Source: a bacterium (GTDB lineage Bacteria; Vulcanimicrobiota; Vulcanimicrobiia; Vulcanimicrobiales; Vulcanimicrobiaceae). From it: DNA of 64,000 nt. The position numbers and the translations under genes are program-made. The notes beneath the pieces were generated by a model. That model worked only from the letters and a program-made list of their open reading frames with translations. It was not told where the DNA came from and searched no databases. Shown in pieces: positions 18,454-58,859 of the stretch. Positions within the stretch are counted from its first letter, which is position 1. The number at the start of each line of letters is the position of its first letter. The stretch lies in assembly GCA_021778415.1 (NCBI GenBank), contig JAJYCL010000007.1, positions 1 through 64,000 on the forward strand. Direction: 5' to 3'.

Positions 18454-18565
18454 ACGTACCGTTGCGAGCGATGTTGAGCGAGGACATCGCCACGGTGCGA
18501 CAAACATCGAAAAAGCACGGTCGAGTACGCCTGCTCCCTCACTTCTTCTTCAAAGGAGGCCTTCC

Positions 18566-20878
18566 ATGGGCTCACGCCGCCGCTCACCACTTGCCCCTGC
18601 CCTCGTAGCAAGCGGGCTCTTTCTCTTGTTAACGGCCTGCGGCGGAGGGGGAAGTAGCTCCGGCGGTGGTGGTGGCGGCGGCGGGGTGATACCGACTCCG
18701 GCACCGACTCCGGTCCCGTCACCGGCCACGGCGACCCAAAGCTTCGCAGTTGGGCCAGCGGCCGCGCAGGCGCCGTTCGGCCCCCTCGCCTCGGGCGCGT
18801 CAGGCACGTTTACCTTCCCTGCGACGCAGGCCGGAACTGCCACCGGCACGGTAACCGAGCAAAGCACGCTCCCCACGGGCGCGCCGGTGCCGGCGCGAGC
18901 GCTCTCGGTCTCGGCCAAAAAACGTATTGAAACCCTTGGGGGAACGGTCACGCCGCTACTCTATTTGACCGTTAGCATGAGCGCGACGGTCACCATTGCG
19001 AGTACGCCGGCGTTTTCGCTCACCTTTCCGGCCGGAACCCTTGCCGGGGACGTCTATGCCGTCGTGTATAACCCGAGTAGTCCGCTGACGGGATGGAACG
19101 TCGTTTCCGGTCCGCAACCGGGCACGGGAACCACGGTCACCTTTCCAAGCGCAACATTGGCCCCTCCGCTGATCTTCGCTGCGAACACGAGCTACATTTT
19201 TGCCATCGTGGAGACCGGCACTCCGCTTCCCACCCCAACGCCGAGTCCCTCGCCGACGCCGATTCCGACATCCTCGCCGGTTGCAGGCATGCCCACCCCG
19301 GGGGCAACGCTCCCGCCAAGCGGCCACAACAATTCGTCGGGCTGGGGGCCAACCGCCGCTGCTTCAGCCTTCAAGTATCCCGTTCAGTCGGGCTACAACG
19401 GAAATGGCGTAACGGTTGCAATCATCGGCACAACCGCGCCACTGGCAAGCGATCTCGCCGCTTATAACGCCGGATTCGGCCTAACCTACACCGGAAACTA
19501 CTCGGTGAAAGTCATTAACGGCGGCCCGGCTGCGCCTGATCCGGCTGGTCAGGGCGAGGCCACACTTGATGTCGAAACCGTTGAAGGACTTGCCCCGGGA
19601 GCAAACGTGGTGTTCTACTCCGTTCCGGATACGAGTGGAACGAGCTTCGACGCCGGATACAATACCATTATCTCGGACCACGCTGCGGCCGGAACGCCGT
19701 ATGTGGTGAGCATCTCCTACGGGGGCTGCGAAGTTGCGGGGTACACGAATACAACGCAAGACACCATCCTGGCAAACGGTGCATCCGCCGGAGTCACCTT
19801 CGTTGCCTCGGCTGGCGACAACGGCAACGAGTGCTTTACCGGCGGTACTCCCGCATTTACCGTTGGTGTGAACGCACCGGCGAGCGACCCGAACGTCATT
19901 GGCGTCGGCGGAACGGAATCGGTTATGAACGGATCCTTCAACATTGCCAATCCAGTTGCGTGGAATGATAACCTTTGCGCCTCCGGCCAGTGCGCCACCG
20001 GCGGCGGCGTATCGACGTTGTTTTCGATTCCGACGTACCAAAGCGGTGTCGCCGGAATTGCCTCAGCGACCATGCGCAACGTCCCGGATATTGCCTTACC
20101 GGCGGTGCAAACCGCGGTCTATAGCAACGGCGCGTGGGCAACAATGGCCGGGACTTCGTGGAGTGCTCCGCAAGCGGCAGCGTTGGTCGCCGAGATCGAC
20201 GAGTACTGCCATCTCTCCTCAGTCGCCAACCCGGTCACGATTTTTTACACGGCAGAAACCAAATCGACAGCGAATTTTATCGATGTCACGAGTGGAAATA
20301 ATCAATTCGGCACAACGACTCCGTTCTATACTGCGACGGCAGGGTACGACAATACGTCAGGCTTTGGCTTCCCACTCGGGATGAACGTCGCGCAATCACT
20401 CTGCCCGAACAACATCCCGCTCATTGCCCACGCATCGTCCGCCTATCGTCCGCTCGCGGAAACACTGGGCGCACCCGGCCCCAGAGTGCTCCCCATGGTG
20501 CCGCCTGTGCGTGGACTTCGCGATCTCGGCCCACGCTTGAGAACCGATCGCGTAACAACATTCATCGTGCTGCGCGATACACCATCACTTCTGCGTGACG
20601 AATCGACGGTTATTGCCTCACTGCAACATGCCGGATTCACCATCGATATGACCTACGGAAACCATCTGGCAATCCTCGCGAGTGCGCCCACATCGATAAT
20701 AAACGCCTATTTTGCAACAACGATGCACGATGTCGTGCAAGGACGCTACGGAACCAGGTACCTGCCGATGACCTCGGTGACCCTTCCAGCGGAGATCGCA
20801 CCGTTCGTCTCCGGCGTCACGCTCGACAACATCATCAGGATGGCGCCAATCTCCGCCTCTCACGTGCCGACGCACTAA
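18566..20878 (+). CDS. S53 (sedolisin) peptidase lipoprotein with C-terminal activation-domain-like region
   Basis: 770 residues; ATG at 18566 follows AAAGGAGG. A lipobox (LLTAC) ends the signal peptide at about residue 24, then a Gly run, a Pro/Thr linker, a beta-rich domain (about 60-225), and a second Pro/Thr linker. The serine-carboxyl catalytic domain follows: Glu331 and Asp335 in GEATLDVE, oxyanion Asp418 in SAGDNG, Ser531 in GTSWSAPQ, and a calcium site FIDVTSGNN...GYDNTSGFG. Residues about 650-770 look like a pro-kumamolisin activation domain (LQHAGFTIDMT, PTSIINAYFATTM, VTLPAEIAPFVSGVTLDN), which in this family normally precedes the catalytic domain. No such domain is visible at the N-terminus. 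Such acid-active endopeptidases act outside the cytoplasm. Confidence 0.88.
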   Translation: MGSRRRSPLAPALVASGLFLLLTACGGGGSSSGGGGGGGGVIPTPAPTPVPSPATATQSFAVGPAAAQAPFGPLASGASGTFTFPATQAGTATGTVTEQSTLPTGAPVPARALSVSAKKRIETLGGTVTPLLYLTVSMSATVTIASTPAFSLTFPAGTLAGDVYAVVYNPSSPLTGWNVVSGPQPGTGTTVTFPSATLAPPLIFAANTSYIFAIVETGTPLPTPTPSPSPTPIPTSSPVAGMPTPGATLPPSGHNNSSGWGPTAAASAFKYPVQSGYNGNGVTVAIIGTTAPLASDLAAYNAGFGLTYTGNYSVKVINGGPAAPDPAGQGEATLDVETVEGLAPGANVVFYSVPDTSGTSFDAGYNTIISDHAAAGTPYVVSISYGGCEVAGYTNTTQDTILANGASAGVTFVASAGDNGNECFTGGTPAFTVGVNAPASDPNVIGVGGTESVMNGSFNIANPVAWNDNLCASGQCATGGGVSTLFSIPTYQSGVAGIASATMRNVPDIALPAVQTAVYSNGAWATMAGTSWSAPQAAALVAEIDEYCHLSSVANPVTIFYTAETKSTANFIDVTSGNNQFGTTTPFYTATAGYDNTSGFGFPLGMNVAQSLCPNNIPLIAHASSAYRPLAETLGAPGPRVLPMVPPVRGLRDLGPRLRTDRVTTFIVLRDTPSLLRDESTVIASLQHAGFTIDMTYGNHLAILASAPTSIINAYFATTMHDVVQGRYGTRYLPMTSVTLPAEIAPFVSGVTLDNIIRMAPISASHVPTH

Positions 20879-53678: not shown

Positions 53679-55342
53679 CTGCCCGTCCGCGTAACTCGTC
53701 CTCTTTCTCTGACAAGATCAACGAACGCATCAGGTTGCAGCGCCGGCGAATAGAGCCAACCTTGAAATGAGTGGCAGCCCATCTCCTTAAGTGCCTGGTA
53801 TTGGCCAGGCATTTCGACACCTTCAGCGGTTACTGAGAGTCCGAGTTCAGAAGCGATACTCACTATGGTATGAATAATCGACTTATCGTATCGATCCGTC
53901 TCTACCTCGGAAACAAACATTTGATCTATTTTCAAGGTATCGATTGGTAAGTGATGCACATAAGAGAGCGATGAATATTCGACACCGAAATCATCGAGTG
54001 CAATCGAAAGACCCATATCTTTAAGATTGCGAAGAGCACAGATTGCGTCGTCGCGGTTCGCCAGTAAAGTCCGCTCGGTCAGTTCGATACCGATTTTTGC
54101 CGGAGATACATTATGACGAAAGAGGCTTGAGCAAATGTCGGCCTCGAAATCTCGATGATGCACTTGCATCGGCGCGACATTAATCCAGACTTTACCATTG
54201 ATTCCAAGCATTCGCCAATTTCTAATTTGCGCACATACCTGATCGAAAACCCAGTTCCCTAAGATTCGAATGAGCGTCCCATTACCTTCAGCCTGCGGTA
54301 AAAAATCGCCAGGAAGTAGCAAACCCCGTTCAGGGTGATTCCAACGGAGCAATGCTTCCGAACCAATGATACAATTCGTGCGAAAGCTCCAAAGCGGTTG
54401 ATAGTATATGACCAACTCGGAATTTCGAATTGCCTGCTGCAGTTCAAGTTCCAAGGTGCAGGAATCAATCATCTCTTGCCGCGCCAACGGGGTTGTAAAT
54501 TCGAACGCTCCGCCGCCAGATTGTTTGACGTTATAGAGCGCGGCATCGACGCTTTGTAAGAGATCCTCAACATTCTCTCCATCACGAGGATATAAGGCGA
54601 TGCCACCGCTAAGTGAAAGAAAATATGACGAGCCAAGAATCGTAAATTGCTCGGAGAAAATTTTTCCAATGGCCTCGATATCGTCTTGTAATTCGAATTC
54701 CGAATGGACGTCAAAAATTACGACTAGAAACTCATCCGATCCGGAGCGCGCTGCAACGGCGTGATCTCCGGAAAACGCGTTGAGCCGCTTGGCAAGTTCC
54801 TCAAGAACAATGTCACCGGCTGTGTGGCCCATGCTATCGTTAACGAACCGAAAGCGATCGATATCAAGGAACATTAACGCAAATCCGCAACTTGGACGCT
54901 TTTCTATTTCATCCGCTAGCACATTCAATACGTTTCTGCGAGAAAGCAATCCGGTAAGCGAATCTCGGGAACCATGCTCATCAGGCAAATACTTCGTAGG
55001 CTGAGTATGGGCAACGGTTGCTAGCGAGGCAATAATACTACGAGGGCTCATGCCATTATCTTGATAGCGTCTCCGTTCGTTTACCAACACGACCGGAGCA
55101 TTCGTCGGCCTGAGCCTATAGGTTGTCGTGCATGCGTTCGAACTCGAGTAGTCCCTTTCTGGCGATCCAGCTAGGATTGCTCGATCTTCTTCCACAACGA
55201 ATTCCAGGAATCGATCCCAATCATCGAGACGTTCGTTCACACCGAGAAGCCTGGAAAGACCGCTCGATCCACGAAATGAGCCGGACTCGGGCTCGAACCA
55301 GTAGCAGGCGGCACGCGATTTATCCACCCCGCGTTTTATCAC
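53675..55342 (-). CDS. soluble PAS-GGDEF-EAL protein
   Basis: 555 residues. The first 110 residues look like a PAS-type region (ACYWFEPESGSFRGSSGLSRLLGV). The GGDEF domain has DSLTGLLSRRNVLNVLA and FMDIDRFRFVNDSMGHTAGD, but its active site reads RSGSDEF, with Ser in place of the second Gly. The EAL domain has EALLRW, ELTERTLL, DDFG(VEY), LKIDQMF and EGVE, so it may be an active c-di-GMP phosphodiesterase. No membrane segments are present. Start is GTG at 55342, overlapping the S53 stop by one base, so it is the last gene of the lipoprotein operon. Confidence 0.87.
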   Translation of the reverse strand: MIKRGVDKSRAACYWFEPESGSFRGSSGLSRLLGVNERLDDWDRFLEFVVEEDRAILAGSPERDYSSSNACTTTYRLRPTNAPVVLVNERRRYQDNGMSPRSIIASLATVAHTQPTKYLPDEHGSRDSLTGLLSRRNVLNVLADEIEKRPSCGFALMFLDIDRFRFVNDSMGHTAGDIVLEELAKRLNAFSGDHAVAARSGSDEFLVVIFDVHSEFELQDDIEAIGKIFSEQFTILGSSYFLSLSGGIALYPRDGENVEDLLQSVDAALYNVKQSGGGAFEFTTPLARQEMIDSCTLELELQQAIRNSELVIYYQPLWSFRTNCIIGSEALLRWNHPERGLLLPGDFLPQAEGNGTLIRILGNWVFDQVCAQIRNWRMLGINGKVWINVAPMQVHHRDFEADICSSLFRHNVSPAKIGIELTERTLLANRDDAICALRNLKDMGLSIALDDFGVEYSSLSYVHHLPIDTLKIDQMFVSEVETDRYDKSIIHTIVSIASELGLSVTAEGVEMPGQYQALKEMGCHSFQGWLYSPALQPDAFVDLVRERGRVTRTGS

Positions 55343-57432
55343 TATGGCAACGCCCAGGTTGCTTTTGAACCCTCATTCGTCAAAATCGCATTGATAAGAT
55401 GCCCTGCGTATGGTACCCCGACTCCCGTAACCAAATCGTACCCCGTTCCGGCCGAGTAGCCGCTTCCACTGTTTCCAAACGGTGAGGCTGCGCCGTTAGC
55501 TCCATAGGTCACATCGAAAAACGTGGCCGGATACTGCGTTGGACTGGAATACACTCCATAAATAAGAGCCGCCGGATTTCCTAATCGATACGGCGCAGCG
55601 CCGGTTCCTTTGCTCGAACACGTCGTGTCGGACTTGCATGCTTGGAGAACAAGTGCCCAGAGAGCCGCCATTTGCGGCGCGGCCAAACTCGTTCCGCCAA
55701 TGGGAGCGACAAAGGCTTGGCCGGGAAAGCCCGCATCCATAACGATTGCCGGAGCGGTCGCCGGATCGGCCATCATCGCTATATCCGGCTGGCCACGATA
55801 ACCACCGGTAATCTTACCGACGCCGGATGCCGTCTGCCATGACGGGGCCAGGAACACTGTCGAAATACCGCCGCCTGAGCCGATATTGTTTCCGAATGAT
55901 CCATTTCCGCCAGCCGTTGTCTGCTCACCCCAAGCGGTGAACGGGGTAAGCGGTGAGCCGTTATCGCTTAAGGGCGCCGTGACACCACCGACGGAGACCA
56001 CGTTCGGATCGCCAGCCGGGTAACTTACGCAGGGCGGATTTCCGAGATATTGCGCCCCAAAGAAGCCGCACTCGTATGCTCCGTTGTCGCCGGACGACGC
56101 GAAGAGCGCCATTCCTTCAGCCGTCATCGTCGCCATTTCGAGTGGGCCATAGCCAAAGCCGAGCGCGTCGTAATACCCGTGAACCGAAACGTACCCAGAA
56201 ACTCCAAGCGGCTCACCAAGCCCGTAGCTCATCGATACGACATCAGCCCGATTATCAGCAATGATCTGTTGAATCTCAGCATCGGCAAGTGCGATCCCTT
56301 CGACCGGTGTGCCTTGCCCAGCTGGGCACGCAGAATTTCCTTGCGGTATTCCATCGACGTAATAACAGTCGTTCGGATTATATCCGAGATAGAACAACAC
56401 GTTCGCCCCAGGAGCAAGCGACGCAATGGATTCGGTGTCCAACTGCGCTTCGAAATCTTCGGGATTACAGGCCGGAAGCGGATTCGAACACGGTGCGGTA
56501 ACCGGAGGCGGAGTCGCAAAACCGCTTGAAAGCGGATACGCTACGCCCGTCGGAAGCGGCGTCGGGGAAGGGGCGCCGATTCCCAGACCTGCGCTCACAC
56601 CCGCGTCAGTAACGTTGACTTGCGTAACCGTCGCTACCGGAGCATGAAAAAGTCCGCCCAAGTAGGGAACATCGGCTGAGGAAATTGGCCCCGTTCCTAC
56701 GACGGCGACATTGATTCCGCTGCCGGTAAAACCTCCGCTATATGCACCACTAAAATCGAATGCTCGCTGCAACTGTTGCGGCGAATACCCGCGTAGTTGT
56801 CCATTCGGCGGACGAAGAGCATAGCTTTTATACAGAACGGCGTGCACCATTCCGACAACCTGTGCAATTGGAACGACGTGCGAAAGATGCGGAGCTCCCA
56901 TCGGCGCGATAAACTGGGCATTTCCTTGTGTATAGATTCCAAATGGCGTGTTAAACGCACGCTCAAATTGCCCAACGGCGCCACTTATGTAAAACGACTC
57001 TCGCTGCGGCCAGCCTTCAACGGTGATTCCATATTGCGCAAAATATGCCGCCGCATTTCCATAATCCATAGAAGTGGCGCCAAAACGATCGGCAATTTGC
57101 ACCGGGCTTAAAAACTGACGATAGCGCGGAGATCCAGGATCACTCACATCATGCGCAAATTGCATCAAACCAATGGGATCCCGTTGATTGACAACAACCT
57201 GCATGCCGATCATCGCATTCCCGTCGGCTTCTTTCTGTAGTACCGCCCCTGTCATGAGTTTTTTACCCCAATCGAATGCAGCGAGTGCTGCTGGACCCGA
57301 ATAAGGCGCTATCGTCGCCGTGGCTTGGCTGCCGATGCCGGCGCGGTTGGGAAGCGCGCCTCCACCGCCGCACGCGGCGACCGCAGCCGCAGCGAAGAGA
57401 GCCAAGAAGAGCTTAACCTTCAACGAGTTCAT
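55342..57432 (-). CDS. S53 (sedolisin/kumamolisin) peptidase lipoprotein
   Basis: 696 residues. Lipobox VAAC at about residue 21, then the N-terminal pro-kumamolisin activation domain with the typical DPGSPRYRQFLSPVQIADRFG, ending near residue 215. The catalytic domain has Glu328 and Asp332 (FEAQLDTE), oxyanion Asp449 (SSGDNGAYEC), Ser582 (GGTSLAAPQ) and a calcium site FFDVTYGAN...TGYDLVTGVGVP. All catalytic residues are present, so it is probably an acid-active serine-carboxyl endopeptidase outside the cytoplasm. Domain order is the normal one, unlike the S53 gene at 18566. Start ATG at 57432 overlaps the previous stop (TGATG); a GTG one codon earlier is possible. Confidence 0.93.
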   Translation of the reverse strand: MNSLKVKLFLALFAAAAVAACGGGGALPNRAGIGSQATATIAPYSGPAALAAFDWGKKLMTGAVLQKEADGNAMIGMQVVVNQRDPIGLMQFAHDVSDPGSPRYRQFLSPVQIADRFGATSMDYGNAAAYFAQYGITVEGWPQRESFYISGAVGQFERAFNTPFGIYTQGNAQFIAPMGAPHLSHVVPIAQVVGMVHAVLYKSYALRPPNGQLRGYSPQQLQRAFDFSGAYSGGFTGSGINVAVVGTGPISSADVPYLGGLFHAPVATVTQVNVTDAGVSAGLGIGAPSPTPLPTGVAYPLSSGFATPPPVTAPCSNPLPACNPEDFEAQLDTESIASLAPGANVLFYLGYNPNDCYYVDGIPQGNSACPAGQGTPVEGIALADAEIQQIIADNRADVVSMSYGLGEPLGVSGYVSVHGYYDALGFGYGPLEMATMTAEGMALFASSGDNGAYECGFFGAQYLGNPPCVSYPAGDPNVVSVGGVTAPLSDNGSPLTPFTAWGEQTTAGGNGSFGNNIGSGGGISTVFLAPSWQTASGVGKITGGYRGQPDIAMMADPATAPAIVMDAGFPGQAFVAPIGGTSLAAPQMAALWALVLQACKSDTTCSSKGTGAAPYRLGNPAALIYGVYSSPTQYPATFFDVTYGANGAASPFGNSGSGYSAGTGYDLVTGVGVPYAGHLINAILTNEGSKATWALP

Positions 57433-58859
57433 CACTTACGAATCTTCTTTCCAAGAGCTTGACGGGTAAGGGCTTCGCTGATCGAACGTATTCGAGCAAA
57501 TCGATTTGCTACGAGTCGCTGCTTCAAACGCAAGCGAGCTATGGCAATCTCCGCCGGGGTAATGGCAGCAAACGCACTGCCCGAATGCGTCGTCACTTTG
57601 CCGGCTATTTGTTGATATGATTGCTGCGGTTGCAATGTAAGCGATTCGGTATAGGTCGTTGTTTGCATCGGCGTGGCCTGGTAGAGAATCGCACCGAAAT
57701 ACGTATCCTTATTATAATCGTAATAGGCACTCACCGTGCTCGAAAGTTGAACGCATACGGGACCGTAGCCGTCAACTACATACGATTTCGTTGTCGTGGC
57801 AGTTGTCATTCCAAGTACCGTATCCGTACTTGTCACGGTTTGCTGGATCTCCGTCGCCGTCGTACCCAGCGACGCTGGTAGATTGCATGATGCAGGAACG
57901 GCCGTAGTACCGAGATTTTTGTCGCTTTCACCATAGAGAGAAAGCGGACTCGTGTACCAAATCGGTAACGTCGCATACGGGGATGGCGTCGGAGGCGATG
58001 GCGATCCGAAGTAAACCGGATAATTTTGTGATGTTATGTAGAGGAACTGAGCGTTCGTCGATTGGGCGGTTGGTGGGCTTACCGCATAATTTTGGTATAC
58101 CACTTCATTCGGCTGGTAGCCGGCACGACCGTTTTCATAATAAATGATCTGAAACACGCCACTACCATCGGGATTTTCGGTCACCGACGATGCTATCGAT
58201 GGATAATTCGTCGTCGTCCCATAGACTTGTACCGAATCGACATAGGTACCATTGCTTGCAATCGTACGCGTTGCACTTTTCCCATCGATAAATGTTTGAC
58301 TCAACTGCCCTGCCGGATTATTTGTCCAAGACGCCCCTGTGGTTTCCGGGATTTGATCGACAACTTGCGGTGCCGTAAACATCATAGTGCTACGATTTCC
58401 GCTGCCGTCCGTAGAGGCATATCCGATCAATGAAAACGCCGAACCTGACTTAAAATAGTAATCAGTCGTTTCGCCGACAGTTTGCGCTGGATACGCGTCG
58501 GTTTCAACCGAATGAAAATCTTGCACTTGCCCGCCGCCGTTAGGATTTGCCGTAGCAAAAACCGTTACCGCCTGCGAGACCTTTGCAGTGCTACTTGTTG
58601 CCGGTAACGGGCTACCAACGGGATATGTGTACGTATCGTTTTGCACCATGCTGCCGGTAAAAGCAAACATGTCGCCGGCCGCCGATGGATGCGGAGGACC
58701 GCTCGGTGCTGGAGTTGGAGTCGGCGTTGCAACAGGGTTCGGCGTAACACTCGGAGCGCTGGGCATTATACTCGACGCAGTACTCGCTCCGCCGCCTCCA
58801 CACGCTGCGAGTACTTCAAGTATTGCAAACGAAGCAAAGATGGCAATATGTCTTTTCAT
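57432..58859 (-). CDS. lipoprotein of unknown function
   Basis: 475 residues from ATG 58859 with GGAG five bases upstream (ATG 58886 overlaps the previous stop as TAATG and is an alternative). Lipobox LAAC, a short Pro/Thr linker, then a beta-rich body of about 380 residues with many Thr, Ser and Tyr, no known motif and only one clear pair of cysteines. The C-terminal about 50 residues (ITPAEIAIARLRLKQRLVANRFARIRS, then ALTRQALGKKIRK) are helical and basic, unlike the rest. I do not recognise a family. It is encoded between the NHL lipoproteins and the S53 peptidase, so it could be the substrate or partner of the peptidase. Confidence 0.75.
   Translation of the reverse strand: MKRHIAIFASFAILEVLAACGGGGASTASSIMPSAPSVTPNPVATPTPTPAPSGPPHPSAAGDMFAFTGSMVQNDTYTYPVGSPLPATSSTAKVSQAVTVFATANPNGGGQVQDFHSVETDAYPAQTVGETTDYYFKSGSAFSLIGYASTDGSGNRSTMMFTAPQVVDQIPETTGASWTNNPAGQLSQTFIDGKSATRTIASNGTYVDSVQVYGTTTNYPSIASSVTENPDGSGVFQIIYYENGRAGYQPNEVVYQNYAVSPPTAQSTNAQFLYITSQNYPVYFGSPSPPTPSPYATLPIWYTSPLSLYGESDKNLGTTAVPASCNLPASLGTTATEIQQTVTSTDTVLGMTTATTTKSYVVDGYGPVCVQLSSTVSAYYDYNKDTYFGAILYQATPMQTTTYTESLTLQPQQSYQQIAGKVTTHSGSAFAAITPAEIAIARLRLKQRLVANRFARIRSISEALTRQALGKKIRK

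Follow-up and report, generated by a model that had tools for sequence, protein, structure and literature searches.

In one clade of 23 genes from 20 genomes, the domain order of an S53 peptidase has truly changed and become fixed: the catalytic domain comes first and the activation domain last. One of these genes lies in the window, the 64,000-nucleotide stretch of DNA that was analysed (Table 1). Its catalytic residues and fold show that the protein is a peptidase of the sedolisin/kumamolisin type; an acid pH optimum is inferred, no purified protein being available. The textbook feature of the family that fails is the position of the activation domain, which is not N-terminal to the catalytic domain but occupies residues 641-752. 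The textbook prodomain of a subtilase or sedolisin is an N-terminal segment which is made first, chaperones folding and is then self-cleaved. A stable clade that places the prodomain last offers a natural experiment on the importance of this order and of the in-line first cut. No sedolisin or subtilase with a C-terminally moved activation domain was found in the open-access literature searched.

The first-pass annotation had proposed this permutation, and most of its claims held. The open reading frame and the four catalytic residues (Glu331, Asp335, Asp418 and Ser531) are where it had placed them. The activation domain is C-terminal according to the Pro-kumamolisin activation profile PF09286, hhalign and the predicted fold, and the N-terminal side lacks one, as had been claimed. 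The statement that the C-terminus reads like the end of a prodomain held in part: the domain is present in full from the DLG motif and first strand, apart from a missing central segment. Two outcomes had been named as refuting the permutation, the lack of a PF09286 match at the C-terminus and the presence of an activation domain in residues 60-225; both were tested, and neither occurred. The two checks that had been proposed, a PF09286 search of the C-terminal region and a structure prediction, gave respectively a match, also across 22 of 22 homologues, and a confident joint packing on the catalytic domain in the model, with the partner strands of the tail inferred. The window's other S53 gene, offered as a normal-order comparison, does have the normal order (PF09286 at residues 63-186, E 7.7e-20), but its coordinates, given as 55342-57432, are corrected to 55342-57435 on the minus strand.

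Table 1. Features of the permuted S53 gene, in window coordinates
Feature	Position	Strand	Basis or conservation
S53 lipoprotein gene, permuted order	18566..20878	+	770 aa + stop
Shine-Dalgarno AAAGGAGG	18552..18559	+	6 nt upstream of ATG at 18566; sequence
Lipoprotein signal, lipobox LTAC, Cys25	18566..18640	+	sequence
N-terminal beta-rich accessory domain, ~residues 57-217	18734..19216	+	without PF09286 match
Pro/Thr/Ser-rich linker, residues 218-255	19217..19330	+	sequence
S53 catalytic domain, residues 256-613	19331..20404	+	kumamolisin match, model
Catalytic Glu331	19556..19558	+	kept in 21/22 permuted homologues
Catalytic Asp335	19568..19570	+	kept in 22/22 permuted homologues
Oxyanion Asp418	19817..19819	+	kept in 21/22 permuted homologues
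Catalytic Ser531	20156..20158	+	kept in 21/22 permuted homologues
Cys548, end of helix after Ser531	20207..20209	+	22/22 permuted vs 7/32 normal-order
Cys613, last residue before tether	20402..20404	+	22/22 permuted vs 3/32 normal-order
Flexible tether, residues 614-640, putative activation-cleavage region	20405..20485	+	low identity, low pLDDT
C-terminal activation (pro-)domain, compact form, residues 641-752	20486..20821	+	profiles, fold
C-terminal tail, residues 753-770, putative product-like inhibitor of active site	20822..20875	+	joint-model strand bridges

The identity of the catalytic domain rests on several lines of evidence. Kumamolisin-As aligns to residues 260-615 with an E-value of 4e-33 (phmmer), and the modelled fold matches kumamolisin structures with a Foldseek E-value of 2e-27 and a TMt of 0.87. 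The Ca site region, expected close to the C-terminal end of the catalytic domain and including the FIDVTSGNN...GYD motif region, could be aligned and is mostly conserved, as judged from the sequence alignment only and without geometry. NCBIfam gave no match for either S53 protein of the window. One permuted protein, L079:1907-4597 in genome G117, lacks the catalytic Glu, the oxyanion Asp and the Ser; judging from these losses, it is likely an inactive pseudoenzyme. Its gene is the upstream member of a tandem pair, immediately followed by an intact permuted copy.

Residues 641-752 are a true homologue of the Pro-kumamolisin activation domain, compacted in its central part, as shown by profile and predicted fold. 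In the window protein itself the PF09286 match is confined to residues 680-752 (profile positions 64-138) and, on the C-terminal piece, reaches an E-value of 2e-4 and 21.9 bits, just under the gathering cut-off of 23.5; the Pfam search found no PF09286 in the N-terminal piece (Cys25 to ~222). The signal is nevertheless far beyond chance, because PF09286 matches the C-termini of all 22 proteins in the permuted alignment, at best with an E-value of 5.8e-12. When the permuted C-terminal domains were compared, profile against profile, with 26 normal-order prodomains from the same phylum, hhalign returned a probability of 100 and an E-value of 1.7e-40; the activation domain of the same-phylum normal-order lipoproteins is 35% identical in the profile alignment. 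This alignment extends from the DLG motif to the domain end, covering the last strand as well as the N-[VIL]-V motif, and is broken by a gap of ~33 columns, which in the permuted members falls at the SDPxSxxYxxYLTxxQF segment of normal prodomains. The permuted members thus do not meet the criterion of a full-length PF09286 domain that includes the SDPxSxxYxxYLT segment.

The beta-rich domain at residues ~57-217 is not an activation domain: it has no PF09286 match, and in other permuted homologues it is swapped for Tectonin repeats (several of them) or is absent, leaving the linker alone. The constant unit across the homologues consists of the catalytic and C-terminal domains. Of the 22 permuted homologues, 19 have a lipobox, and two of the remaining three are truncated at contig ends; lipoboxes occur in permuted and normal-order proteins alike. 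The beta domain (18734-19216) matches no Pfam family in a Pfam search and recurs near the front of other proteins of the same genome (L003, L004 and L005).

The 23 genes come from searches, first of relatives and then of 149 genomes belonging to the window's phylum (Eremiobacterota), with the hits sorted by domain order; by the names obtained in a contig scan, the permuted-gene records fall in Candidatus Eremiobacterota. The 22-row alignments omit one permuted gene (G099, L078:5677-7995). The scan of genome contigs gave no matches with a single sequence as query and gave matches with an alignment. Outside the phylum its hits, in Verrucomicrobiota, Chloroflexota, Actinomycetes and others, are of normal order or without a detectable prodomain. 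Samples of 289, 301 and 297 genomes from three other phyla, the last without a positive control, contained no permuted match under strict thresholds. Ktedonobacteria and Actinomycetes also have some proteins of 455-504 aa with an S53 catalytic domain (L138-L142, L145), in which our models detected no prodomain. Around the permuted gene at 20 other loci, none of the seven window neighbours (0/7) recurs, and the genomic context therefore gives no function.

In the catalytic-domain tree a branch supported at 100/99 separates the permuted genes from all others. This tree leaves out six long or distant rows; in an earlier tree that included the long rows, the permuted group was split and two placements were unsure. 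The prodomain tree repeats the split between permuted and normal-order genes, again at 100/99. Among three close homologues, dN/dS is 0.10-0.14 for the C-terminal domain and 0.13-0.14 for the catalytic domain, and is somewhat above both, at 0.16-0.26, for the tether. The C-terminal domain is under purifying selection. A chance fusion, an assembly error or a decaying gene might be suspected from the PF09286 score of the window protein, just below the cut-off, but such explanations are all but excluded by the presence of 23 genes in 20 separate genomes, in one clade supported at 100/99, and by the low dN/dS.

The structure of residues 242-770 (529 residues) was predicted with AlphaFold2 from a 64-row alignment. 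The joint model of the catalytic and C-terminal domains has a pLDDT of 90.6 and a pTM of 0.92; as this pTM extends over all 529 residues, the C-terminal domain (~130 residues) is confidently placed on the catalytic domain. Modelled alone, the C-terminal domain has a pLDDT of 89.8, and its top three Foldseek matches in the PDB are pro-kumamolisin (1t1e) and pro-tripeptidyl-peptidase 1 (3edy and 3ee6), with E-values from 3.4e-7 (1t1e) to 2.7e-4; subtilisin propeptides come next, weakly. The joint model contains strand bridges of the tail at residues 757, 760-761 and 765-766, whereas the isolated domain has none past residue 752. As the bridges appear only in the joint model, the tail is predicted, and is likely, to pair with the catalytic domain. 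That its partner is the substrate cleft (residues 385-388 and near 357) is inferred from strand positions and the kumamolisin alignment, without coordinates. The last 9 residues have a pLDDT of 55. The tail is variable in sequence and extends 7-25 residues beyond the Asn of the LDN motif, never fewer than 7, in the 22 homologues. A tail of at least 7 residues is close to the number of residues that follow the last strand in subtilisin propeptides.

These results bear on two alternatives. The C-terminal domain might have been repurposed, for instance for binding a substrate or surface, leaving the attached catalytic domain no longer regulated. The missing central segment of normal prodomains and the unusual location speak for this, but it is unlikely, given the confident joint packing, the predicted dependence of the tail bridges on the catalytic domain, and the prodomain homology, which reaches the last strand and includes the N-[VIL]-V motif. 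Less likely still is domain-swapped inhibition, in which the tail or the entire C-terminal domain acts on a neighbour in the membrane and not in cis. It is permitted by the long flexible tether and the membrane anchoring, and tandem permuted copies exist in genomes G099 and G117, but the model of the monomer is confident and nothing requires a dimer.

The tether, in which identity among the permuted homologues falls to 0.22 at residues 622-631, coincides with a block of low pLDDT (58 at ~622-631) in the joint model. A disulfide between Cys548 and Cys613 might pin its start; this is a tentative proposal, made without geometry.

The mechanism to which we lean, by a modest margin, is that the tethered C-terminal prodomain inhibits as a cleaved propeptide does and is removed by a cut in the tether, while the enzyme stays anchored. 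It is inferred, without biochemistry, and so are the inhibition, the cleavage site and the pH. The C-terminal domain would fold against the catalytic domain and inhibit it, a step supported solely by the modelled packing. Its free tail would occupy the substrate cleft like the end of an already cut propeptide, with no uncut linker threaded through the active site. Activation would consist of a cut within the flexible tether and, since the tether lies outside the occupied active site, the cut would probably be made in trans by another protease molecule. Low pH would be the likely trigger, because S53 genes are tied to acidophilic life (PMC6411800) and the linker between S53 prodomain and catalytic domain is normally cleaved at low pH (PMC6278154). 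As the lipid anchor is on the catalytic side, it is proposed that only the prodomain is lost on activation and that the active enzyme remains attached to the cell; the normal-order lipoproteins carry their anchor on the side of the prodomain, and activation would release the catalytic domain. If this mechanism is true, the permuted layout is a way to hold an activated acid protease on the cell surface. The earlier assertion of a necessarily different mode of zymogen activation is a reasonable inference that has not been shown.

A precedent for the proposed inhibition is the clostridial subtilase CspB. Its cleaved prodomain remains bound and blocks the site with its C-terminal P6-P1 residues, which occupy the cleft as far as the oxyanion hole; once the last three or four prodomain residues are removed the site is open, and the same holds for a prodomain given in trans (PMC3567191). 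The mode proposed to be common to both proteins is a prodomain C-terminus that sits in the cleft as an inhibitor (PMC3567191). CspB differs in belonging to family S8 and in having an N-terminal, autocleaved prodomain. By analogy, a C-terminal prodomain with a free end would be a CspB-like arrangement encoded in the gene, which would make the usual first cut unnecessary. In a bolder reading, which is slightly more likely to prove wrong than right, the zymogen is encoded 'pre-cut': it bypasses the initial autocleavage that known sedolisins and subtilases undergo, activation at the tether is purely intermolecular, and a released protease becomes a cell-anchored one.

It also remains possible that the C-terminal domain is never removed and serves as a reversible gate or a chaperone of folding, without any activation cleavage, and that acid pH or substrate displaces the tail. 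The bound prodomain that gates the site in CspB (PMC3567191) speaks for this alternative, as do the covalent tethering and conservation of the C-terminal domain; a tethered prodomain need not be shed, and PCSK9 is a further case of a retained prodomain. Against it, the tether is flexible and fast-evolving, as expected for a cleavage region, and cutting of the prodomain-catalytic linker at low pH is the S53 norm (PMC6278154).

Kumamolisin (S53; PDB 1t1e and 1sio) has the same catalytic fold, Glu-Asp-Asp-Ser residues and activation-domain fold as the permuted protein, in which the activation domain is C-terminal and ~33 columns shorter centrally, and the permuted layout precludes the usual linker from prodomain to catalytic domain through the cleft. 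The precursor of tripeptidyl-peptidase 1 (S53; 3edy and 3ee6) likewise has both folds in common with the permuted protein, but its prosegment is N-terminal and a short linker is removed on activation. Normal-order S53 lipoproteins of the same phylum (for example L021, L073/L096, the C36/C29 gene of the same genome and P0002) consist of a lipobox, a prodomain, in some a middle domain, a linker and the catalytic domain.

Among normal-order genes, the group closest to the permuted ones on the catalytic tree (G012 and G089) shares with them Cys548, partly Cys613, most of its members having a Cys at or near that column, and a short C-terminal extension; its prodomain loop is shortened. With the same extra Cys and extension, this sister group can be compared directly with the permuted genes and suggests a plausible way in which they arose. 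In G089 (L096:2285-2330) two of its S53 genes lie in tandem with a 4-base ATGA overlap. Fusion of such a normal-order pair, with the outer domains subsequently lost, may have produced the permuted order, a route that is possible and purely inferred.

The genome of the window also contains a normal-order S53 lipoprotein that is apparently split at a TPKPTASP repeat between L006 (start of contig C36) and L002 (start of contig C29), the prodomain and a CBM-like domain being on one contig and the catalytic domain on the other. A repeated stretch at L006:1724-2445, with frames reading MLRSDAKHRVSK and CHAEERCEASR, resembles a dispersed repeat and not a gene.
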